From Hydra vulgaris (taxonomy: Eukaryota; Cnidaria; Hydrozoa; Anthoathecata; Hydridae), in NCBI RefSeq assembly GCF_038396675.1, contig NC_088932.1, positions 22,582,501-22,646,500 of the forward strand: a stretch of DNA of 64,000 nucleotides. Reading direction: 5' to 3'. Position 1 is the first letter of the stretch. The number at the start of each line of letters is the position of its first letter. Under the pieces are notes generated by a model, which had not been told where the DNA came from, made no database searches, and saw only the letters and a list, made by a program, of their open reading frames with translations. Shown here piece by piece: positions 7,248-57,655 of the stretch. Both the position numbers and the translations under genes were made by a program.

Positions 7248-7610
7248 TCTTTTTTTTAAAAGATGCTTTTTATTTATTATTCAAAAATATTTTTACATTA
7301 CTAAACTATTATCATTATGCTACTAAAAATTTATAGTAATAAAAGAAAGGTGCAAAAGTTATAAATATTTTTTAAGTATTTCCTTCTTAAAATTTCAATA
7401 TATTAAATTTTGTTTTATAATAAACTAAAGTTGTATAAACAAGCCAAAAAGATTTGACTTTTTTGACACGGAGCTTTTAAATAAACTTATTTGTGTTTAA
7501 AAAGCTCAAGTCAAAAAAACATGTGATGAACGCTGGCAGCATTAAGTTTAGTATTACTCTTTAGGATTTAAATATTATCAAAATCTGCTTTAGCACTCAA
7601 TATATACAAC
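6600..7610. other. AT-rich intergenic stretch
   Basis: No gene seen. It holds a short (TA)n at 7205-7242 and AT-rich sequence upstream of the first TMEM175-like gene, including the likely promoter or 5' UTR intron, which cannot be placed by eye. Confidence 0.6.
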
Positions 7611-7645
7611 TTGATAAAGTATAGAAGTTTCTCATTTTTAACATT

Positions 7646-7664
7646 ACTTTTTTTTATAGAAAAA
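7646..7664 (+). promoter_or_regulatory. splice acceptor directly before the ATG
   Basis: The run ttttttttatag ends at 7660 and is followed by aaaaATGG. A pyrimidine tract plus AG five bases before the start codon implies the mRNA 5' end is made by splicing, either from an upstream non-coding exon or by spliced-leader addition, which Hydra is known to use. Confidence 0.55.
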
Positions 7665-9245
7665 ATGGTGTCGAAAACAAAACAAACTAAGGAAAGCGGT
7701 CTTAAGACTAGGAGCATTCATAAGCATTTAGAAGAAAACTACGATGAGCACGTGGATATCTTGTTACCAAAAGATCATCATCGAGGGGACATTACATCTT
7801 CTAACCGGTTGTTAGCTTATTCTGATGCTGTGATGGCAACTTGTGCAACTTTTCTAGTTCTTCCTATACGAAATTTAAAATATATACGAAAATATATATA
7901 CGAAAACCAATCTCTAAGTGATTTCATTGAAAAAGTTTCTGATGAATTTATCATTTTTTTTCTCGGTTTTTTGATTATTCTTACAATTTGGGAAAATATG
8001 AACATTCGAGCTATAGTGATAAAACGTGTTGATGATTTTATACTAGCATTGGTTATTTTTGAGATGTTGGTAACTACTGTTCTACCTTTTACGTTGGCAT
8101 TGCAGGGGAATTATCCTACGGAAAAAGTCTCGGTTTTGGCAACATGTGTTACTTTAGGTGTTCTCCAGGTTTTAGATATTGGAATAATTTTGTATGCAAC
8201 ACACTCACCGAATCTGCTTCATGTTGATTTAAAAGAGTGGGACAAATCTGATCTTCGAGAATTAACTTTAATAATGACTTTTAGACCAGTTGTTAGTTTA
8301 ATATTACTTGTTGTTTCTGGTGCGTTTTGTTTAGTTCATTTTGGCATTTCATGGGCGTTTATTGCGCTGCTAATATTTATGCCTTCAATTCGCAAACTTT
8401 ACTGGTTTATTCGTCGACGAATGGTAAAAGTTGAAAAATCGGAAAAAAGCTTGTTTTTAGAACATTATTCAAAAGGCAATATTTCTAAAGAACGAATTGA
8501 AATAATGAGCGATGCAGCTATTGCAATTATAGCATGTATTCTTATACTTGACATTACTGTGGAAGAGTTCCCCCTTCCAAATAAAGTTGAAGAGAGTGGT
8601 CACAGCCTAATATACTCATTGAAACATATGACTTCAGAATTTCTCACATTTCTTGCCACATTCTGTTTGGTTTCGGCTTTATGGTATATCAATCATGCTG
8701 TTCTACATTTGGTTGAGACAGTTAACTCCATTATGTTATACTTGCAAAAAAATTTTCTATCATTTTGTTGTTTAACTCCTCTTGCTGGAAACTTGATATT
8801 ACATTTTGCGACACAAGGTGATAATGACTCTGCAATTGCAATACGTTTCGCCTCAATGATAGTGTTTATTTCAAGTACAGCAAACTTTTTTATTTATTTG
8901 TATGGCAACCTAACTGGATCGAAATATTTTTATGAATGGGCATCATTTAAGCATTATTGGAAAAATAAACGTCAACATTTCTACTCTTTAGCTAAAGCAT
9001 TGAATATACCATTTTGGTCACTGATTTGCACTTTAGGGACTTTAGGCTCCCATTCTGCATCTCCTTACGTTTTTTACGTATCATTCCTTGCCTCGCCTTG
9101 TACATTTTTTGTTTCAAAACTCATTTTGATGAATCATGTTGGTAAAACCGCAATAAACTTGAGAAAAACAATTTTACGTCGAAAGTCGATTGTCAAAGAA
9201 AAACCTGTTCCCGCAAACAACGGAAATGAACTGACTCCCCTTTAA
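7665..9245 (+). CDS. TMEM175-like: TMEM175-family cation channel, paralogue 1 (526 aa)
   Basis: Intact single-exon gene. TMEM175 proteins are two-repeat, twelve-helix K+ (and proton) channels of endosome and lysosome membranes. Repeat 1 opens at residues 48-68 with RLLAYSDAVMATCATFLVLP and repeat 2 at 277-297 with RIEIMSDAAIAIIACILILD. These match the family's RxxxFSD signature, with Phe replaced by Tyr and Met. About eleven to twelve hydrophobic segments follow the expected spacing; length is close to the human protein (about 504 aa). The helix ends around residue 250 in a basic RRR loop. The start at 7665 was chosen over the in-frame ATG at 7611 because a splice acceptor ends at 7660. The position I align to the first pore isoleucine is Thr59, while the second is kept (Ile287). 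Its paralogue is at 19996. Confidence 0.9.
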   Translation: MVSKTKQTKESGLKTRSIHKHLEENYDEHVDILLPKDHHRGDITSSNRLLAYSDAVMATCATFLVLPIRNLKYIRKYIYENQSLSDFIEKVSDEFIIFFLGFLIILTIWENMNIRAIVIKRVDDFILALVIFEMLVTTVLPFTLALQGNYPTEKVSVLATCVTLGVLQVLDIGIILYATHSPNLLHVDLKEWDKSDLRELTLIMTFRPVVSLILLVVSGAFCLVHFGISWAFIALLIFMPSIRKLYWFIRRRMVKVEKSEKSLFLEHYSKGNISKERIEIMSDAAIAIIACILILDITVEEFPLPNKVEESGHSLIYSLKHMTSEFLTFLATFCLVSALWYINHAVLHLVETVNSIMLYLQKNFLSFCCLTPLAGNLILHFATQGDNDSAIAIRFASMIVFISSTANFFIYLYGNLTGSKYFYEWASFKHYWKNKRQHFYSLAKALNIPFWSLICTLGTLGSHSASPYVFYVSFLASPCTFFVSKLILMNHVGKTAINLRKTILRRKSIVKEKPVPANNGNELTPL

Positions 9246-19995: not shown

Positions 19996-21606
19996 ATGGA
20001 TGAGTCAAATATAGAGATTAACTCCAAACACCAGTTGCAGAATTCATCGTTAAAAGAAGAAAATGATTTAGATAATGAAAGCAATACAACTTTTGAAAGT
20101 GGCGATCTTGGAGATGTGTTTACATCAAATCGTATGTTGGGATACATTGATGCTATCATGGCTACAAGTGCTACTTTCCTTGTGGTCCCAATTAAAAATA
20201 TAAAGGAATTGGAATCAAATAATACCTTTTCACATTATTTAATCAATATGCGCACCGAATTTATAATGTTTTTTTTGGGTTTTACGATTGTTTTAACCAT
20301 TTGGGAGAACATGAATGTAAGATCATTGGTTGTTAAAAAGGTTGATGACTTTATATTGACTTTTATTATATTAGAAATATTGGCAACTATAGTCCTTCCG
20401 TTTGCATTATATCTACAAGGTAGTTATCCTGATCAGTATGTTCCAATAATTTTGACTTGCTGTGTACTAGGAATCATTCAAATTTTGGATATTTTTCTCA
20501 TATTTTACGCTATAAAAAACACAAAGCTTCTTCACACTAAAATACAAAATTGGTCAATAATTGAACTTCGCAGGTTTCGCAGTATAGTCCTGGTTAGACC
20601 AGTATTATGTTTAATTTTAGTCATAATTGGCGGTATGCTCTGTTTAGTTCACTATGCTATCTCATGGGGGTTTATAGCTATTTTAACTCTTATGCCAATA
20701 TTTCGTAACCTTTATCTATATGCTCGGCGGCGAATGAAGACATCAAAACGAATAGAAAAATATGAATTTTATTATTATTTCTCCAAAAAAAACATTCCAA
20801 AAGAGCGGATTGAGGTGATGAGCGACGCTGCATTTGCAATTATTGCGAGTCTTATAATTCTTGACATCACAACTAAATTTTCTGAGAAAGTTGATTCAGA
20901 TATGAGTTTAAATCATCAACTTAAAGATAATCTTCTTGAGTTTTATACATTTCTTGCTACTTTTGGTATTGTTTCAACTCTATGGTACGTCAACCATTGT
21001 GTTTTCCACTTGTTTCGTACTGTACCGGCAGTAGCACTTTATATACAAAAAATTTTTTTGGCATTTTGTTGTTTATGTCCTTTAGCAGCTAATATGATTC
21101 TAAAATTTGGTACCAAAGGAGACGAGAGTTCATCAAGTAGTATTTGTTATGCAAGTTTAATAGTTTTTTGTGCCAGCATGGGAAATTTTTTTCTTTTTTT
21201 ATATGGATTTTTGACTAAAGATAAATATTTTTACAAATGGGCAACATTTGGTCGCAGTTTTCGTACAATGTCACAACAAAATAAATATATCATTTTTAAA
21301 ACAATTAATGTTCCATTTTGGTCACTTTTATGTGCTTTATGTAGTCTAAGTCCTCCAAAAATAGCACTTTACATTCTTTGCGGTTGTTTTCTTGCTACAC
21401 CGACAAGTTTTTTCATTGCAAAGTTGGTTTTCATGACTCACGTTGGAAAATGTTTGCATTTCAGAAAAATTTATTTAAAAAATGACGTAAGTAATAAAAC
21501 CGCAACTTTAGTACAAAGCCAAGAAAACGTATTAAACAGCAATAATTCTTTAGATTTAGAACTAGCGAATGAAAACCATATATCTTTGGAAGATGAAAAA
21601 TCATAA
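19996..21606 (+). CDS. TMEM175-like: TMEM175-family cation channel, paralogue 2 (536 aa)
   Basis: Intact single-exon paralogue of the gene at 7665, same strand, with the same domain order and closely matching helices (for example FFLGFTIVLTIWENMNVRS and TFLATFGIVSTLWYVNHCVFH). Repeat 1 begins at residue 46 with RMLGYIDAIMATSATFLVVP, so the family FSD motif is changed to YID (Ser to Ile at 51). Repeat 2 begins at 271 with RIEVMSDAAFAIIASLIILD and keeps SD. The position I align to the repeat-1 pore isoleucine is Thr57 and that of repeat 2 is Ile282. The C-terminal tail is acidic and Asn/Ser-rich. A poly(A) signal aataaa is at 21644-21649. The pair most likely arose by local duplication. Function as an endolysosomal K+/H+ channel is inferred from the family. 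Confidence 0.88.
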   Translation: MDESNIEINSKHQLQNSSLKEENDLDNESNTTFESGDLGDVFTSNRMLGYIDAIMATSATFLVVPIKNIKELESNNTFSHYLINMRTEFIMFFLGFTIVLTIWENMNVRSLVVKKVDDFILTFIILEILATIVLPFALYLQGSYPDQYVPIILTCCVLGIIQILDIFLIFYAIKNTKLLHTKIQNWSIIELRRFRSIVLVRPVLCLILVIIGGMLCLVHYAISWGFIAILTLMPIFRNLYLYARRRMKTSKRIEKYEFYYYFSKKNIPKERIEVMSDAAFAIIASLIILDITTKFSEKVDSDMSLNHQLKDNLLEFYTFLATFGIVSTLWYVNHCVFHLFRTVPAVALYIQKIFLAFCCLCPLAANMILKFGTKGDESSSSSICYASLIVFCASMGNFFLFLYGFLTKDKYFYKWATFGRSFRTMSQQNKYIIFKTINVPFWSLLCALCSLSPPKIALYILCGCFLATPTSFFIAKLVFMTHVGKCLHFRKIYLKNDVSNKTATLVQSQENVLNSNNSLDLELANENHISLEDEKS

Positions 21607-22810: not shown

Positions 22811-23420
22811 TTACTTTAACGTTAACTTTATTTTAACATTTTTTAGTGTACAGAAAAAATAAAACAAGTATTCACATTTTTTTAAAGATACCGGTTGCTT
22901 TGGTATTTTACCGCATAAATTGCATATACATAGCTGTAAATGAGGATTAAATTCGTTTTTCAAATCGCTAATATCTATTACCATATTGTGTATTGTCAAA
23001 ATGCTCTCTTTAAAATGCTTAAAATAGTAAAAGTCCAAACTTTTTCTCCAATTCTAAGATGGCCAATAAAAAATTTTTTATTTCTAATTTGAGATTTTGA
23101 TGCATTGAGACCTGACGACAAGTATAGCAGTCGTCAAAACGAGGAGTCCATTGTGTACACAAAAGCAGAGTGGTTGGTGACTTTCTTTTGATTACAATGT
23201 TAATTGTTAAATAGCATTTGTGACAAATGTTTAAAGGATGCACCGCTTCTACATCAATTAGTTTGATGTAAAACATATTTTCAATTTTACTTTTTTGGAT
23301 GGCTTTAATAGGGTGTTTTCTTTTTAAAACAAAACAACCACAAACTCTGCAAAGGAGATTTGAATTCTTGATATGTAAATCCGTCTTAAGGAATTTAAAC
23401 TTATATATAAAATTTTTCAA
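22811..23420 (-). pseudogene. RAG1 N-terminus-like zinc-binding/RING relic
   Basis: Two overlapping frames (23420-23019 and 23038-22811) join by one frameshift near 23030. The first has the spaced zinc motifs of the RAG1 N-terminal region: LLCRVCG, then [20 protein letters not shown], then [11 protein letters not shown]. The second has [22 protein letters not shown], aligned with the first half of the RAG1 RING finger, with the His and one Cys replaced by Tyr. The order and spacing match vertebrate RAG1 as I know it. RAG1-NTR-like proteins have been reported in invertebrate transposons. No catalytic core follows on this strand; the frame ends after the RING. A transposon-derived relic is the likeliest reading. 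Confidence 0.6.
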
Positions 23421-24231
23421 TACAATATTAAATTATTATGAAAATATTTATCGAAATTCAATACGAAACTTAAATCAAAATTTAAAATAGTTAAAAAATA
23501 ATTCACAATAACAAAATTTAAAGTGCAAATACAATAAAAAAAGTCAGTGGATGTGTACTTAAAGTGAGTCTCATGAGATATTATTATTTATGAAAATTAT
23601 ACCCTCATTAAATCTTAGTCTTGACAGTTATGGTTAAGGTTTATTGGTTATGGTTAAGGTTATTGTACAGGCATATAAGTCATTTTTTTTAAGGGTGTTC
23701 TTAAATACAAAATCTTTAAAATATCAATAAATATATTTTAAAGAAAATATAGCAGCTCAAAAATTTGATCTTTCAAGTTATGAGTAGTTTGTAATAAATT
23801 TAATTTTTTTTTTTACCTCTTTCACAATATTTTGTCTATAGAATAAAGTATTATAAAATAAAATAAAAAATTAATTTTGTTTTACCTTTTTTATTTTATT
23901 AATTTTTATTTTATATTTACAATCTTTTACAATCTTTTGTCTATTGACAAAATGTCTGGGTGTGACTTCATTGTAGAGAATGCCTAATTTACATTGGAAA
24001 AGGAAAGTAAAGGAACCTTTGAAATAAAAGGTGCATCTTACGGCTGTGTTGAAAATTTGAAAACACATATTTTCAGACATCTTGATCAATTAGAAAGGTG
24101 ATTTTGATTAAAATAGTAGATTAAAAAAATATATTTTCAAAAATAATTTAATGTTTTTAAAATCAGCAATTGCCAGTTAGTCTTAAAACCAACTTGCATC
24201 AATAAGAGTTGGTACATGTCTTTAACTCTTT

Positions 24232-27369: not shown

Positions 27370-28600
27370 TTTTTTAACCGTATGAAGTTTTTTTTACCTG
27401 CGCCAATTTTAAAGTAACTACCAGATTTAATATTAAGAGCATAAAATACAGAAGACAACTTAGCAAAGCCATCATTGTAAGTAATGGTTGCAGAGTAAAC
27501 AGCTATTTCAATAACTGCTCCAGATGTGAATAAAGTTTTAGGGGAACAAATTCAAATTAGTTGATTAAACGCTTCATTATGCCGTGCAAACATTTTGTTA
27601 GCATATTAGTATTTGCTAGATTTTGAAATACTGGCTTAATCTTTTCCATAATTGCAACTAATAAATTTACCTTTTTCTTGTATGTAACTTGACAAGTTGC
27701 TATATCAGACTGCCATTTACATCAGCTTTTTTCACCCTTGGTGTAAAAAATATGACGATATTCTTCAGAAGTAAAATTAGTGCAATGATGAAGTGAAGCT
27801 ATAACGGAGTGATGAAGTGAAGCTATAACGGAGTTCTTCATTTCCAAAAGACTATTTGAATTTTGCTGAATAGCCATTCCAACATAATTTTTCAAGATGT
27901 TGATTACATTATCTGTGAGCCGACCTTTACCAGATATACCTTTTCTGTCAAATAGTTTTACCCGTCGTAATTCTTTTCTTTTAAGACGTATTCGATTCCC
28001 TATACGCTTCTGGTAATACCCAATACATTCTAGTTTTATTGGAACAAGGTCATCACCATAATGTTTTTGTGCAATAGCTGTGCTAAATGAGGTAGTCTCT
28101 CTGTCCCCAAGATATTTAGAATAGCGAATGTTATATTTATTTACTGAAGTGCAAAATATTTCTGTTGCACCAGCTGACTCCATGGCACCAGCTAATTTAG
28201 TGTGCTCATATTTAAGTGTCCTTTTTTTTTCCTCCCGAATTTGACAACCTTTACAAAACTTAGATAATATAACAGTATCCAATACCTTGTTGTCGTGAGA
28301 CGCTTCCACCATTACACCGTTCAAAGAAGAATAAACACCACAATCAATAAGATCATTTATATTAGAGTCAGGTTTCAGTATTCTCCTAACTTTCATAGCA
28401 GTATTTTTCATACTTTGCTCAGCAACTGATTTAGAAGCATCATAAAGTTTCCTATTAATACAGTCAAAACTAGGTTTTGATTTAGGTGGTGGCATGTTCA
28501 ATTTTAGGAGGTAGAAGTTAACATTGCATCTCTCCCTCTGCCAATCTCCCTGAATGCCATTACACTGCGTATATTAGTTTCACTAGTATTTATACCAGAT
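27370..28600 (-). pseudogene. Kolobok/Mutator-like transposase
   Basis: Main frame 28501-27722 (259 aa) plus shifted ends. Upstream, 28600-28510 encodes NIRSVMAFREIGRGRDAM, then MNMPPPKSKPSFDCI. The core holds YSSLNGVMVEASHDNKVLD, AGAMESAGATEIF, YNIRYSKYLGDRET, LECIGYYQKR and GKGRLTDNVINIL. Downstream, 27680-27400 continues with KCLHG, AFNQLIW and YNDGFAKLSSV after frameshifts. These are the conserved blocks of a large animal transposase family; GD in KYLGDRE and D in the LNGVMVEAS-H-D segment are possible catalytic positions by inference. A 24-bp tandem duplication (27787-27834) repeats SVIASLHH. Frameshifts near both ends suggest a recently dead copy inside well-kept TIRs. Confidence 0.8.
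27787..27834. repeat. 24-bp perfect tandem duplication
   Basis: The unit beginning gatgaagtgaagctataacg occurs twice back to back inside the Kolobok transposase, duplicating eight residues in frame. Confidence 0.95.
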
Positions 28601-43430: not shown

Positions 43431-43472
43431 AAATTCAATATTTAGATTTTATTTTTAATTATTGCTATTTAG

Positions 43473-43558
43473 GTGCACCAAGAAGACCTAACGGTCATGT
43501 CACAGAGCACCGCAGAAGTGCATTTAACCTGGAAGTTCAAGCCTCCTTCCTTACCGTG
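43473..43558 (-). repeat. SINE 3' body fragment
   Basis: On the minus strand: ggaggcttgaacttccaggt, taaatgc, gaccgttaggtcttcttgg and gcacctaaatag. This is the body of the SINE at 31786; its tRNA head is replaced by the (ACAT)n tract that begins where the head should be. Confidence 0.75.
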
Positions 43559-43821
43559 ACATACATACATACATACATACATACATACATACATACATAC
43601 ATACATACATACATACATACATACATACATACATACATACATACATACATACATACATACATACATACATACATACATACATACATACATACATACATAC
43701 ATACATACATACATACATACATACATACATACATACATACATACATACATACATACATACATACATACATACATACATACATACATACATACATACATAC
43801 ATACATACATACATACATACA

Positions 43822-43855
<34 letters not shown>

Positions 43856-44350
43856 CAAACAATACATACATACATACATACATACATACATACATACATA
43901 CATACATACATACATACATACATACATACATACATACATACATACATACATACATACATACATACATACATACATACATACATACATACATACATACATA
44001 CATACATACATACATACATACATACATACATACATACATACATACATACATACATACATACATACATACATACATACATACATACAAACATACGTACATA
44101 CATACATACATACATACATACATACATACATACATACATACATACATACATACATACATACATACATACATACATACATACATACATACATACATACATA
44201 CATACATACATACATACATACATACATACATACATACATACATACATACATACATACATACATACATACATACATACATACATACATACATACATACATA
44301 CATACATACATACATACAAACATACATACATACATGCATTCATACATACA
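43559..44350. repeat. (ACAT)n microsatellite, ~790 bp
   Basis: About 195 tetranucleotide units with rare variants near 43850-43862, 44085-44095 and 44316-44336. All long Tyr-Ile-His-Thr and Met-Tyr-Val-Cys frames here are repeat artefacts. Confidence 0.99.
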
Positions 44351-44355
44351 TTTCT

Positions 44356-44464
44356 TTAATATATATTCAATATTTAAATACAAACTTTAATTACTTATTT
44401 TTGATGTGAACACATCAAAATCAAGTAATTAAAGTTTAAATCTAAATATGGAATATATATTAAA
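44356..44464. repeat. ~53-bp-arm hairpin, 2-nt loop
   Basis: Arms 44356-44408 and 44411-44464 with a handful of mismatches, centred on gatgtg-aa-cacatc. Confidence 0.85.
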
Positions 44465-48705: not shown

Positions 48706-49730
48706 TCAATATTTTGTGGCGAATCCTTTGTTGTAGATCACAGCCTTGCATCTTCGAGGCATAGATTCAATCAGGTGATCAATGAAACTTTGTGGAATCG
48801 CTGCCCAGGCATTTTGGATTTGTTAAAACAGTTGATCCTTATTATGAACACCTTCACGATTAATTCTGCGGTTGACGATCTCCCGCAGGTTCTCGATAGG
48901 GTTGAGATCCGGAGATTGAGGCGGCCAATCCATCACCGATAGGTGGTTATCTTGAAACCACTGCTTGTCTACTTTTGCAGTGTGTTTCGGATTGTTGTCT
49001 TGCTGAAAAACCCATTTTATTGGCATATTCCATTCAGCATGACGTAACATAACATCTTTCAGGATATTTTTATACATGAAACGGTCCATTATTCCATCGT
49101 TTCGATGTATTGGACCTCGACTGTTAGCAGAAAAACACCCCCAGACCATTACATTGCCTCCACCATGCTTCACGGTCTTATGGCAGTAACGTAAATCGAG
49201 GCGTTTTCCGGCTGGTCGACGTACACGGCAAATGCCATTATTCCCAATGATGTTGAACTTCGATTCATCACTGAACAGGACAGTTCGCCATTTCTGCACA
49301 TTCCAGTCAATATGAGATGTAGCAAACAGGAGTCTTTTCTTTTGGTTTTTTAGTGAAATCAGCGGTTTCTTTGCAGGGCGTCGAGAAAACAATCCAGCGT
49401 CAACAGCACGTTGTCTGATTGTTTGGTCCGATACAGGCAGCTCTAATTGCTTTTGTATCTGGACTGATGATATCCAGGGATCCTTCTTGATGGATCTGAC
49501 GATCATAGAATCCTCTCTAGAAGTGGTGGAGCGCGGTCTTCCACCTTTGTTATCTGCTGCCAACTTCCCTGTAGAACGATATTTGGAACATAGTCTTGAT
49601 GCTGTCAATTTTTCACGCAATATTTATCACAAATACTTTTTTGTGACATTCCACTTACGTAATCGCCAATAATTTTCTTTCTTAGTTCCAATCCAAGACT
49701 GTCGGGAGCCATTTTTGCACTTGAAGTCAT
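48706..49730 (-). pseudogene. Tc1-like transposase, nearly intact
   Basis: About 340 codons from ATG 49730 (or 49712) to the stop at 48706. N-terminal paired-like helix-turn-helix: MAPDSLGLELRKKIIGDYV, SQKSICDKY and, after a frameshift near 49620, CSKYRSTGKLA. GRPRSTT forms the GRPR AT-hook-like motif. The catalytic D-D-E is complete: FSDESKF, QDNNPKHTA and WPPQSPDLNPIENL. C-terminus: NAWAAIPQSFIDHLIESMPR and KGFATKY. Only the frameshift and a TAA at about 48820 (where Gln is usual) break it. It cuts and pastes at TA sites. Young copy judging by the few lesions. Confidence 0.9.
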
Positions 49731-51118: not shown

Positions 51119-51394
51119 GTTTGTGTGCCACAAAATTTGAAATCAATTTTTGAAAGCTTTTTTCTCAACCAATTTTGCTCAAATTTTGCACACTTAATCA
51201 TTTTCGATGACAATACAAGGAAATGGAAAAATTTGACCAAAAAAAGTAAATTAAGTTAACAAAAATTTAATTTGTATTTTCCCATAAATTTTATTTATTT
51301 GATATGAATTGCGTATTACGTCACAAAAATCAGTGATTTGCAAATTATTTGCGGTTTCGAAGACATTAAAGCGCAGCGATTCAAAACCTATTGT

Positions 51395-54300
51395 TTTTTA
51401 AGTCTTAAGAGTCATTTTTTGTAAGAATCAGGCAGTCAATGGAAGTGACCTCCTCCAAATTGCTTGAATTTTTTATATATTGATCAGAATATAGAGAAAA
51501 CCTGTTGGGGAAAAAAAAAAATTTCAAAAATGTTTCGTTCACTCGGAATCTGGGCTTAAATTTTTGAGATTTTTTTAAAAATTTTTAGAAATTTAGTTTT
51601 TGCCACCTTTGAACCCATTTTTTTGGCAAGGCAAAAAGTTGCACATAGCTTTTGTAGTTAATATCAGACGTAACCCAAAAGCTCTCTCCAAAATATATAA
51701 AAAAGTTGCGTGACACTGTGCTGTTGGCTAATTATCATAGTTCAAAAGTACAAAATCAATCAGTTTTGTCAACTTTTAATCGCAGTTAATTCTAGCGGCG
51801 AAGTGTTGCACACAATTTTTCTTTTAGGGTTTGAAATTATCAAAGGTATTGAGTCTAAAAATGCAAAGAAAGTTATGTGATACCTAAGGCCTATTAATAT
51901 ATTAAAGCTTGAAATTGAAAAAAAATGTTTTAGTATACTTACAAAATGAACCATTACGGCAGAGGCGCTTAGTTTTGTAAAAATGTAAACATATCCAACT
52001 GTCAATACAAAAAAGTCCTAACATAATAATAAAAAAAATTCGTGTGATCTTTAGATATTAAGTTAAAAATAAAGGTACAAATTGTTAAAAATGATTAAGT
52101 ACGAAGAGATATTTTTTTGGACACACAGATGAGGTTTTCGCTCACAATAAAATTTCTATCATCCAAAATTAGCATTTAGCATTACACAAAACATTGCACG
52201 TAATGTTAAGAAAAAATTTAAGCGTTTCTGACTATGATATAGAAATCATAACAATTGAAATAAATAATAATAAAAAACAATACATGATCAGAAGTGAATT
52301 ATTTAAATTTACGTCATAACCAAATAACTTGTGGTGATCGAATGGAAGAAGAATCGCTGATATCACGATTGTGGAGAAACAAGTTAGTGGGCGGTTGTTT
52401 ACTTTACCATAAAAATGTCTTAACTTTATTTTAACGATCTTTAAAATTTGCATAAATAGAGTAGATATTTTATCATTGCTATTGAGAAATAGGTACTGCA
52501 TAAATAGAACTTGTTTTTAGTTGAGTATGAAACAAAACAAATATTTTTATGAAAACTGTTGTTGCTTTTCAAAAGGAAATTGTGGATCATTCAAAAAACA
52601 TAAAATTATAAACAAAATGTTCTACATTCATCAGCTGGGAGATGTTGATGTTAAGAAACACCTCATCAACTTAAAGGTAATTATGTATTTTAAATTTACG
52701 CAGACTGTAATATAATTTTTATAATTACATACTTTATAACTTCTCTGCAATAAGATTTTGAGACAAAGTTCTTTAAACAAAAAAAAATAGCTCTTTTAAT
52801 CAATTCCTCACTCTTTTAATAAATAATCACTAAATTAATCACACTCTTGCAATATTGTATTTTAATAATAACAACAATGTATTTCAAACTTGTAAACATT
52901 TTTCATGAAGAGTCAGATTATAAACAATGCTTTAAATGACACACTTAATAATTGTTTAAAAAATTGTTTTTAGGTCATGCGATTAAACGATAATAATATT
53001 TGGGAAGAAAATGGACTTATTGCAAATAGACTTAAAAGAAATCTTGAAAAGGATGAACAAATATGTGCTTTTCACCGGTACACGTTTGGTATTGCATGGA
53101 GTCCTCCAAAAATATGCTTTCATCCTCACCATCTAAATATAAAAGGAAAAAAATCTCCCGCTTTAAGGGCGTCACCAATACATGTCGTCATATCAATGTC
53201 AAAGCGATACAATGAAGTATTTTCAGTTGGTGCAATGCTGTGTTTTACCCATTTAAAGCAAGAAACTGCTTTATCTAGAGTCAACAAAAACACCAATTTA
53301 TGTACAGAAACACAAACATAACAAGAACAAACATATATGACACCTGCTACTCCAGATGAAGAATTTGATCCCGGTGAAATTAATGTTTCACAGGAGATTT
53401 TGGACGAATCTCTAAGAAGCCGTGAGAGTGTAACTGAGGTTCTTAATGCAAGTCCAATAAAATTTAGATTAAAAAGGAAGTTCGAATATCTGGAAGATAC
53501 TACTAAAGATAAGTTAAAACGCAAGTATGTTCGCCTAGAAAACTTATTAAAGAAAAAATTTGCGGAAGCTGTTGCTCCTGGACAAGAGGAAATACTTATA
53601 GATTTTCTTAACAGTAAAAATGTTGATGAAATAAATAGCCCTCTCCCAATTGAAATTATTCGTGCTCAGAAAGTATATAAGCAAAGTGATTCCATGCGAA
53701 AGTTAGTTATCCTCTCATTATTAGACCATACCAAGTATACCAAAAAGTTTATAATGAACACATTTGAGTGTACCAAACATCGTATAGAAACAGCAAGAAA
53801 ATGGCATGCATCTCATAAAGGGTTGGCATTTCCAGAGAAGAAAGTATTCGTCTGATCTAGTCTTGATCAAACAAAGTGTGAACATTTCTTAGACTTTATA
53901 TTTACAAGCGGTATTTTGCATGATTTTGCTTATGGAATAACCAAATTAAAATACGACAGCGGTGAAGAACAAAAGATAGTGCATGCAATACTGACGACAA
54001 AATATAGCCACGCTATCATGTTCTATCGAAAAAGTTGTAGTGAAAACAATTATATACCATTATCTGATTCAAGTTTGTGGAAAGTATTGCATGCAATAAA
54101 ACCTTCAAGTCGAAAAAGCTTAGCTGGATTAGATGATGTTACTGCTTCAGGCATGAATGGTTTTCAAACATTACAAAAATTGGCACAAAGATTTAGTTCT
54201 AAATCTCTCGAAGCTGCCCTTGAAAAAGGAAAAAGGTATTTGAAAACAAGTTATCAAACCAATTGTAGTGTCAATGACTCAAACATTTCTTCTCATAGCT

Positions 54301-57235
54301 CAAAACATGCCTTATCAGATCCATCTGAAAAAAATCTTCAATCCAACACAGAGATATCAGAAGTGGTATGTGCCGATTGCTATGATTTGTGCAAAGCTAT
54401 CGAGATGATCAAAGAACTAACAATTCAAAATTCTGACGATGCTGATTCTATTTATGATTTGGAAACTGCTGTAAAGGATGTATTCAACTACATAAAACAC
54501 CTGATGAGAGATTCTCAACAGAAAAAGGCAAAAATTGAAGCTTTTAAGCAATTAAACGATGAAACTGCTTTCTGGCTTAAAGATTTTTGTCAAAAAATTC
54601 TTCCGGTTCGATACAAAGAGGGCCAAAGAGAGTATTTTGGCAAGAAAGGAATGAGTTTACATGTGGATATATTCTTCATAAAAATAGCAGGAAAGTTATT
54701 CAAACGTGTTTACTTTACTTCAATGTATAGGTGTGATCAGGGAATAGGTGTAAAGACAATTTTAAGGAGTTACGTTGACTCTGGTAATAATCTTTTGACT
54801 GCTGAAGATATACACAAGGCTATGCATTATAGTTTTGGCGCTAAAAATGCAAAAGTAGCAGTTGCTCAAATTAGCAATGATAAAACTGTAGTTACTGGAC
54901 CAAAGATTAAGAACATTAGCAACTATTACTCATTTGAGTTTGGTGAGAAAAGTATGAAGATGTGGCGTTATTTCAATATCGGTGAGGGAATTGAACAAGA
55001 GTATGGAAATCTTAAAATTCAACCCTCGATTAAGTTGTTGTTGCCATATAGCAAAACAGATAATTCAATTAAGCGTAACAAGTCACTTAAGGAAAAACAG
55101 AAAAGAAGTGACAGGCAATTATATTCATTAAGATTTTGCACTGAAATGAATTGTACTTTATCATTTGAAAGCGATGCTGAGTTAGAAGAACACATGCTAT
55201 CCGGTCTTCATACAGTTCCGAAATCATTAACATCATTGGATAAAGTTCGCAACTCGTTTGTTCATAAGATGAAAATTACTTCACAACTAAATATGCCAAT
55301 TTCTTCATCCTCTAACAGTGCTTCCGTAAAAGACAAACCACATTGCATGAACATTTTTCTATTGCAAGGTTGGGCATTACCAGTTCGAAGTTCTTTTAGA
55401 TTTTCAAATCAGCAGAAAGAACTGTTGTATAAATACTTTATTCGTGGAGAAGAATCAGGTAATAAAATGAGCCCTGAGCAGGTTCACATGCAGCTGAGGA
55501 GAGAACTTCCGCCTGATCAATATGTAACTAGCCAACAGATAAGATCTTTATTTTCAAGGTAGGCATTGTTGCTATCAAAACTTTTGCAAATTAGATTATG
55601 TTTCTGACTGTTAAATAGTTCTTTTACAAATATGAAATTAAAATTTAGGTGAAAGTTATAATTTTGTGTGTTTGTTTACATATGTTTAAAAATATGTACA
55701 ATTGATATTGTTATAGATTTAGTAACCTGAAAAGAAAAGGTAAGCTGGTAGAACCGACAACAGAAAATAATGAAAATAGTCAGGTTAACGATAACAAAGA
55801 AGTTTATGGCGAAAATGATGACTTTAATCTGGCAGGAGACAATGAAGATGATAATAAATATGAGGAAGACATCGCCAATCTTGCAAAAGAAATTTGTCTT
55901 GTATGGAAAGTGAATGATTGGGTTGCTGTTGCATATAAAAAACAATGGAATATTGGATATATTGTGGAGGTAATATTATTCAAAGTATATATTAGTTTCA
56001 AGTTTTTATTTTGTTTTACAAAACAGTGCTCTAAAATAAAAGGAATATAAATAAAATGTAAAAATAATTTCAGAATGACATTATATAAGACTTTACAAGT
56101 TTTATTGAATGTAAGCAAAATTAAACAAATCATAAACTCTTTATTATATTATTTTAAATGTTGCGCTAATACTTTAAGGTATCTATAACTGGGATCAGAG
56201 TTAATTGTATGATTAACGGGCAAGAGAAGAATACTTTTCGCTGGCCAGTTACTACCGAGGAGATAAATAACCAAACTGATAAAATTATCTGTTTAGTAAA
56301 TGCTCCTTTTCTAATCAGTGGTTGTGGCGATTATTCATTATCCGAAGAAGACTATAATACAGTCATATCATTATTCTTAGAGAAACTTACTTCAGCAGAG
56401 TAGAAATTATGTGTGATGTGGTGGATGTGTGTAAATGGCTCTATTAATAAATGAAAAACTAATTTTTAAATGGAAAAACATTTAAATGTTTGATTTATGT
56501 TTTATTTCATTAGCAATATAGTTATCTTGATGTTAGATTTTTGTTCAGTTTTTAATTCATGTTATATCATGCGTGTGACAAAATCACACGAATTTTTTTT
56601 ATTATTATGTTAGGACCTTTTTGTATTGACAGTTGGATATGTTTACATTTTTACAAAACTAAGCGCCTCTGCCGTAATGGTTCATTTTGTAAGTATACTA
56701 AAACATTTTTTTTCAATTTCAAGCTTTAATATATTAATAGGCCTTAGGTATCACATAACTTTCTTTGCATTTTTAGACTCAATACCTTTGATAATTTCAA
56801 ACCCTAAAAGAAAAATTGTGTGCAACACTTCGCCGCTAGAATTAACTGCGATTAAAAGTTGACAAAACTGATTGATTTTGTACTTTTGAACTATGATAAT
56901 TAGCCAACAGCACAGTGTCACGCAACTTTTTTATATATTTTGGAGAGAGCTTTTGGGTTACGTCTGATATTAACTACAAAAGCTATGTGCAACTTTTTGC
57001 CTTGCCAAAAAAATGGGTTCAAAGGTGGCAAAAACTAAATTTCTAAAAATTTTTAAAAAAATCTCAAAAATTTAAGCCCAGATTCCGAGTGAACGAAACA
57101 TTTTTGAAATTTTTTTTTTTCCCCAACAGGTTTTCTCTATATTCTGATCAATATATAAAAAATTCAAGCAATTTGGAGGAGGTCACTTCCACAGTTTCAG
57201 GAATTTGCCTGATTCTTAGAAAAAACGGCTCTTAA
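51395..57235 (+). mobile_element. unclassified DNA transposon, ~5.8 kb, ~650-bp TIRs
   Basis: 51395-52047 and 56578-57235 are inverted copies of one another. The inner part (51769-52005 against 56626-56862) translates to the same 78-residue string with no difference, so the arms are almost identical. The outer 40-60 bp diverge and differ by a small indel, so exact ends and target duplication are not settled. Contains one four-exon gene on the plus strand. Confidence 0.9.
52521..56403 (+). pseudogene. four-exon transposase-like gene of the long-TIR element
   Basis: Exons 52521-52676, 52974-55558, 55717-55969 and 56179-56403 join in phase (0, 2, 0) into one 1,073-codon frame with only two stops, TAA 53319 and TGA 53853. 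Blocks: ICAFHRYTFGIAW and CFHPHHL (zinc-like); FLDFIFTSGILHDFAYGI; SLWKVLHAIKPSSRKSLAGLD; YFGKKGMSLHVD then MYRCDQ; ILRSYVDSGNNLLTAEDI; MWRYFNIGEGIEQEYG; a C2H2-like CTEMNC...EEHMLSGLH; QGWALPVRSSFRFSNQQKELL; QYVTSQQIRSLFSR; an acidic stretch; and a C-terminal VWKVNDWVAVAYKKQWNIGY segment like a small chromatin-reader fold. I recall related uncharacterised animal proteins with a longer core; here the section between CDQ and ILRSY, where catalytic acids would lie, seems deleted. Family unnamed to me. Confidence 0.65.
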
Positions 57236-57239
57236 GTTA

Positions 57240-57655
57240 TTAAATTAAAAAACAAAAATTTAGTAAAAACAGTAATTTTTAAATTTTTAAAAAAAAAAAA
57301 ACAGTAATTTTTCCTTCTACAAAAGATTACAAAAAAAGAATTTCTAGGCCCAATAGAATTCTGCTTGCATAAAGCATGGATTTGAAAAAAGAATTTTTTT
57401 TTGATTTACTAGTTTTTAAGCTGCATCTATTTACAGCTTAAATAGCATTATATAACTTTTGTTGGATCAACTCTCTAGAGTGATTATAAGATTAAATTAA
57501 AAAAAATATATATATTTTTATTATTAGAAACCGAAACTTAATGAAATTTAAAAGTAAATCAATGTTCTATTAAAAAAAAAAATGTAATCTCTAGTTATTT
57601 CCATTTCCCAGAGATAATTCAAAGCTACCCCAGATGTGTTCAAAGCTACCTCAGG
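57240..57655. other. AT-rich, no gene
   Basis: Two forward copies of ttcaaagctac (57618, 57639) precede the MITE at 57658. Confidence 0.5.

Follow-up and report, generated by a model that had tools for sequence, protein, structure and literature searches.

The window, i.e. the whole stretch of 64,000 nucleotides from Hydra vulgaris that was analysed (assembly GCF_038396675.1, contig NC_088932.1, positions 22,582,501 to 22,646,500 of the forward strand), contains a DNA transposon of 5,823 bp that begins with 5'-GAG, ends with CTC-3' and is flanked by a TTAA duplication on each side. Its main features are listed here in window positions.

51150..51404, no strand assigned: left flank, belonging to a different repeat of high copy number that received the insertion
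51405..51408, no strand assigned: target-site duplication TTAA, left copy
51409..57231, plus strand: whole transposon, borders from aligned copies and five empty sites
51409..52051, plus strand: left arm of 643 bp, end type A (GAGTCATTTTTTGTAAGAATC...)
51440..52051, plus strand: arm core without gaps, matching the reverse complement of 56580-57191 at 610 of 612 positions
52527..52676, plus strand: exon 1 with a putative ATG at 52527
52974..55558, plus strand: exon 2 with the N-terminal zinc part (CFHPHH, ~53115), the catalytic region, C2H2 (~55134-55211), GWALP and the QIRSLFSR block
53319..53321, plus strand: first internal stop, TAA
53853..53855, plus strand: second internal stop, TGA
54582..54584, plus strand: codon of the putative first catalytic Asp (WLKDF), retained according to alignments
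54748..54749, plus strand: junction of a private in-frame deletion of 222 bp, with loss of two putative catalytic Asp, the second in SDNAGCY and the third in GKDQCD
55717..55969, plus strand: exon 3 with an acidic stretch and the beginning of the C-terminal beta-rich tail
56179..56403, plus strand: exon 4 with the remaining C-terminal tail and the stop
56580..57231, minus strand: right arm of 652 bp, end type B (GAGCCGTTTTTTCTAAGAATC...), its outer ~40 bp unlike those of the left arm
57232..57235, no strand assigned: target-site duplication TTAA, right copy
57236..57415 (end approximate), no strand assigned: right flank, the same host repeat continued

The host repeat was recognized in a search with positions 51150-51403, which gave 40 scored places (the window's own included) at 98-100% from 760 candidates. 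All five unoccupied copies of this repeat that were read have one single TTAA at the insertion point, and this shows that the window element was inserted with a 4-bp TTAA duplication. Matching duplications occur in 25 of the 29 copies that are readable at both ends; among the four non-matching ones L016 is an artefact of the script, which misread a changed end. The 24-base A end preceded by TTAA was found in exact form 165 times in the genome (911 Mb) and the reversed control not once; close copies of the family in the Hydra genome number well over a hundred. A rule for the orientation of the duplication, suggested by four of four matched non-TTAA cases with NTAA in A-to-B direction, was dropped, as VTAA and TTAB are both present 13 times beside the A end genome-wide. 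The sequence-only reading had described a TIR DNA transposon of a recent family, and this is right. Of its borders (51395-57235) the left one lay 14 bp too far out and the right one included the TTAA.

The transposase gene has four exons. Its three introns are all of the GT/AG type and the joined exons stay in phase over 1,070 residues up to the terminal stop, interrupted by two internal stops; the gene had been read correctly before as four exons in phase with two stops, only its length of 1,073 codons has to be amended. The joins are in accordance with NCBI predicted proteins of Hydra vulgaris, the first with P0004, the second and third with both P0001 and P0003. The zinc, C2H2, GWAL and FSR blocks already noticed in the protein are real and recur in relatives. 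The deletion of 222 bp within the gene had been overlooked. Its 39-mer junction occurs once in the genome. An equally short copy (L012) was considered as sharing this deletion and rejected: it has a different deletion of 226 bp and its core is kept. Since its catalytic core is partly deleted the window copy would be unable to make active transposase and, judged from the reading frame with its two stops and the loss of two of three putative catalytic Asp, it is dead; it lacks the complete transposase of an autonomous element. An open frame of 936-937 residues is found in 5 of the 33 copies read.

A search for relatives revealed 290 proteins at E <= 0.001, and all names among the 120 matches listed are “hypothetical” or “uncharacterized”. 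Nearly all relatives with an organism name among the matches listed are cnidarian. Four open-frame pieces of the window gene and five relatives gave nothing above cut-off in Pfam; two relatives gave only weak matches below cut-off in NCBIfam, and PDB sequences likewise yielded weak matches only, none at E <= 0.05. No published description of this transposase family was found in the literature searched, although one may exist in print.

In 90 of 90 aligned relatives Asp140, 224, 262 and 265 are invariant, i.e. the last two lie 38 and 41 residues beyond Asp224, the second one, and Glu256 is present in 89, with Asp in the remaining one. The core is predicted to adopt an RNase H fold, and the invariant Asp together with the RNase H order in the structure model point to catalysis that is probably of the DDD type. 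As Glu256 is nearly invariant a DDE reading is also conceivable. The evidence from Foldseek is weak: with the P0006 model nothing reached E <= 0.001, and the P0013 model had six matches at this level, with low TM-scores and in a list that also includes Argonaute and terminase nuclease RNase H-like folds. With the catalytic cores of retroviral integrase and Mos1 only the fold is shared, at 10-17% sequence identity. None of the matches listed by Foldseek and VIA-align is titled Sola, Kolobok or piggyBac, which excludes nothing.

The best explanation of the whole, to which we assign a probability of about 0.72, is a cut-and-paste DNA transposon from a large TTAA-targeting family of animals, with a non-autonomous copy in the window and with arms that exchange sequence, most likely from the Sola3 group of the Sola superfamily. 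The transposase encoded by intact relatives has ~1,100 residues: a zinc part at the N terminus is followed by an RNase H-like core, probably of the DDD type, then by a C2H2 finger and finally by a C-terminal tail rich in beta structure. This enzyme may bind the arms of 640-650 bp, cleave the element at its GAG/CTC ends and transfer these to TTAA, with target cuts staggered by 4 bp; of this, the duplication is observed, cleavage and joining are the presumed chemistry behind it. The window copy would be a derivative that has kept both arms and could thus be mobilised in trans by intact copies.

Sola3 elements are marked by a TTAA target and 5'-GAG/CTC-3' ends, and both are seen in the window family. 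Together with the long arms and the probable DDD RNase H transposase they make placement in this group most likely; the third Asp of Sola may correspond to the one in GKDxCD. The 4-bp target-site duplication is a further likeness to Sola. According to PMC10741241 Sola elements mostly measure 2-9 kb and have TIRs of 11-1124 bp, and the window element with its 5.8 kb and its two arms lies within these ranges. The sections consulted in PMC5199201, PMC11071193, PMC9033089 and PMC10294476 do not give the target or the ends of Sola3. The membership rests on architecture, since the comparison with Sola was made by description; no difference was found in this way, and the earlier statement that the element is apparently unnamed is not established.

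That the family is a superfamily of its own, so far undescribed, of DDD transposons with TTAA targets is rather unlikely. It would fit with the fruitless searches of Pfam, NCBIfam and PDB in spite of so many relatives, but missing from these databases does not imply missing from Repbase, for which Hydra was mined, and the features agree with Sola. Quite doubtful is also an unnamed animal TTAA superfamily defined by a DD41D (or DD38D) integrase-like core, C2H2, GWAL/FSR and, in some of its members, a chromatin-reader-like tail, in which frequent recombination between the 650-bp arms equalises the ends and flips the gene; if this were true, arm identity would systematically underestimate the age of elements.

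Kolobok, likewise well known as a TTAA superfamily and ending in 5'-RR/YY-3', is a very unlikely home. The TTAA duplication, the ends (here GA...TC) and the zinc motifs in the transposases are all as described in PMC9587614, and the nearly invariant Glu would be in line with it. In contrast, the window family lacks the C/DxxH signature expected between catalytic residues two and three (any such string appears in only 5 of 90 relatives), and beyond the second Asp the acidic residues that are invariant are again Asp. Having been considered for its TTAA, Kolobok was set aside for the lack of this signature. PiggyBac was taken into account for the same target. Its catalysis is of the DDD type and its transposase domain is included in Pfam, but the four open-frame pieces and the five relatives gave no piggyBac family there at E <= 1. 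The TTAA duplication, occasionally ATAA (PMC8634313), is shared, whereas the ends 5'-CC..GG-3' (PMC10045372) differ from GAG..CTC, and piggyBac was set aside on these grounds.

The two arms of the element had been called nearly identical, and their core differs only at 52014 and 52049. The section of 237 bp reported before as identical is too short, as the uninterrupted run comprises 574 bp (51440-52013). The core matches 40 scored places at 98-100% (from 600 candidates), a result beyond chance, as is the number of A ends preceded by TTAA.

Five substitutions private to the window element are present in both its arms and absent from the other 61 arms read, so sequence transfer between its arms is strongly indicated; the sequence-only reading had left the choice between recent movement and gene conversion open. 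A very recent insertion alone, with arms that do not copy each other, is most improbable. The window copy is close to its family (it departs from the majority at 14 of 3,427 internal positions, a private rate of 0.41%) and sister pairs at 99.93-99.94% identity exist, but these five changes in both arms speak against it, and at the internal rate ~5 differences are expected between the arms over 609 bp where one is observed. Because of this transfer arm identity alone gives no insertion date, and the young look of the ends seems to be partly due to mutual copying of mutations.

Among 30 elements 22 element-private changes are found in both arms and 34 in one arm. Copying is thus incomplete, as also follows from a mean arm difference of 0.33% within elements. 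In two of the 30 the gene has the reverse orientation relative to the two ends. One-way copying within an element may keep its two arms alike, and crossing over between them would invert its interior; the patterns are observed, the mechanisms are those they suggest. An assembly artefact behind the arms or the copies is extremely unlikely. Two sister pairs lie inverted on the same chromosome, ~11 and 32 kb apart, and each single copy could still be one, but copies sit on different chromosomes with their own flanks, target duplications and private changes, and for the one in the window there are clean empty sites and a deletion not shared by others.

A curated profile for this transposase family would tidy gene lists, since it has many members in the databases, no Pfam match and uninformative names. 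The element is of an ordinary kind, with an instructive evolution of its arms. The Hydra copies represent a compact natural experiment on arm exchange, in which shared element-private changes can be counted, and they are a caution against dating elements with long TIRs from the divergence of their arms.

The element was placed in the window (C13:22582501-22646500 of assembly G000, 911 Mb in 15 contigs) with the following borders:

51409-57231: whole element, 5,823 bp, GAG at its start and CTC at its end, TTAA on either side

Its arms, i.e. the long terminal inverted repeats, measure 643 and 652 bp and share a core of 612 bp that aligns ungapped with two mismatches. The outermost 30–40 bp of the left and right ends are unlike each other, and all 30 elements with both arms typed carry one A end (GAGTCATTTTTTG; left in the window copy) and one B end (GAGCCGTTTTTTC; right).

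The insertion itself is directly visible. The left flank is a piece of another repeat (best 40 of 760 candidates scored, all 98–100% identical), and in five of five unoccupied copies, read out of the 39 other host-repeat places listed, a single TTAA stands uninterrupted (...AAGTC-TTAA-GTTA...) where the window has TTAA-element-TTAA. The transposon proposed in the sequence-only reading thus has its target duplication, and its exact 24-base A end directly follows TTAA at 165 places genome-wide. The same end follows A/C/G-TAA at 13 places and TTA-C/G/T at another 13, which gives TTAA a share of 86% among the 191 exact A ends counted in these three contexts. Both ends were obtained for 29 of the 33 copies read, which are biased to young ones because they were chosen by similarity to the window's arm. 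Matching 4-bp duplications occur in 25 (21 TTAA and one each of ATAA, GTAA, TTAG and TTAT); the other four (L016, L027, L030, L031) are non-matching, and for L016 the cause is a script error at an end with an altered base.

Among these copies L027 (C7:6204890-6213100) and L028 (C7:6190130-6198130) are inverted, about 11 kb apart and 99.93% identical; their match stops at the element ends, and such a sequence pattern suggests a recent local hop. L016 (C8:30613800-30621990) and L017 (C8:30577640-30585640), also inverted, are about 32 kb apart and 99.94% identical, with a match that runs on for about 155 bp on one side, as far as the retrieved sequence goes, and stops at the element end on the other side. 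Copy L014 is interrupted near window-equivalent position 56179 by a 926-bp insert whose inverted ends start with GGGGAGACCGGGGC, apparently a nested smaller transposon.

Joined, the four exons of the gene (GT/AG introns) encode 1,070 residues interrupted by two stops, and the joins are consistent with NCBI protein models. In Pfam neither four open-frame gene pieces (exons 1 and 4 left out) nor five relatives gave a family at cut-off. At E <= 0.001 three homology searches returned at least 16, at least 35 and 290 relatives; the first two scored just the candidates with most words in common, and 120 of the 290 were listed. The nearest are Hydra vulgaris predicted proteins with 92–97% identity across the aligned part, which makes this very probably the source species of the window. 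Those listed with an organism name belong to Hydra, Actinostola, Oculina and a single metagenome bin with the label Gammaproteobacteria, which presumably contains eukaryotic DNA.

Six other full copies all have a 222-bp piece that the window copy lacks; the gap follows 54748 and keeps the frame, and its junction 39-mer occurs once in the genome, in this copy. The missing piece contains SDNAGCYQ and GKDQCD with the putative second and third catalytic aspartates, whose loss would inactivate the encoded protein even if there were no stops. Since the arms are whole, movement in trans would be possible, and an open frame of 936–937 residues (the expected length of the intact long exon) in five of the 33 copies means that candidate enzyme sources exist.

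The arms were compared in 33 elements (63 arms, majority as reference; L021, L024 and L033, with missing or shortened left arms, contributed one arm each). Seven substitutions against the majority stand in both arms of the window element, and five of these are absent from all 61 other arms; a sibling sharing the five would be expected among the 40 scored places, as these were ranked by similarity to the window arm. In the 30 two-arm elements 22 private substitutions (13 elements) are found in both arms versus 34 in one, where independent coincidence predicts about 0.03 in both; "private" refers to the copies read. Mean arm difference is 0.33% within elements (n=30) and 0.71% between them (1,923 pairs). 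The internal region of the window copy, aligned with all copies but L033 (32 in total), shows 14 private changes over 3,427 positions, a rate at which its two arms should differ at about five places in 609 bp; one such difference was counted there (two over 612). L011 and L015 have the gene in the opposite orientation between their A and B ends, with matching target duplications, the outcome that crossing over between arms within one element would give. Except in the window element, copying from arm to arm may have preceded insertion.

Further features of the window were noted:

7572-9242, + strand: 557-residue frame, match to TMEM175 (lysosomal potassium channel), E 6.6e-24
19996-21603, + strand: 536-residue frame, TMEM175 match, E 3.6e-20, forming a local gene pair with the preceding frame
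23022-23432, - strand: 137-residue open frame, Pfam "RAG1 importin binding" match, E 1.7e-7, suggesting that Hydra has a RAG1-like N-terminal part, perhaps from a Transib/RAG-type element
27725-28573, - strand: frame with Pfam Mutator-like transposase family match, E 2.1e-27
43472-44406: long tandem repeat, several frames giving HTYIHTYI or YVCMYVCM
48826-49623, - strand: Tc1-like transposase frame with HTH_Tnp_Tc3_2 and DDE_3

Sola3 transposons duplicate TTAA and start with GAG. On its features the element is probably a Sola3. Sola is characterized by DDD, a 4-bp duplication, mostly 2–9 kb and TIRs of 11–1124 bp (PMC10741241), and Sola1-3 are groups of one superfamily in Repbase (PMC4455052); the duplication and sizes of the element fit, and DDD is probable. 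To the reading as a whole (a TTAA-targeting cut-and-paste element, most likely Sola3, with arms exchanging sequence) we assign a probability of about 0.72. It was weighed slightly lower, and an undescribed superfamily of TTAA-targeting transposons slightly higher, because of a nearly invariant glutamate and weak Foldseek scores; such a superfamily is possible, if rather unlikely beside Sola3. TTAA duplication is also found in Kolobok and piggyBac. Kolobok is described as targeting TTAA, with ends of the form 5'-RR/YY-3' and the signature C/DxxH (PMC9587614), and the element fits the first two, but the signature was found in just 5 of 90 relatives. PiggyBac has 5'-CC ends (PMC10045372), in contrast with the GAG start here.

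The element is a genuine and recent transposon whose kind is already known, and the transposase of this copy is dead. Its arms are homogenised by exchange and are no plain clock, and it is useful to know that the sequences scanned from so large a family matched no Pfam model.
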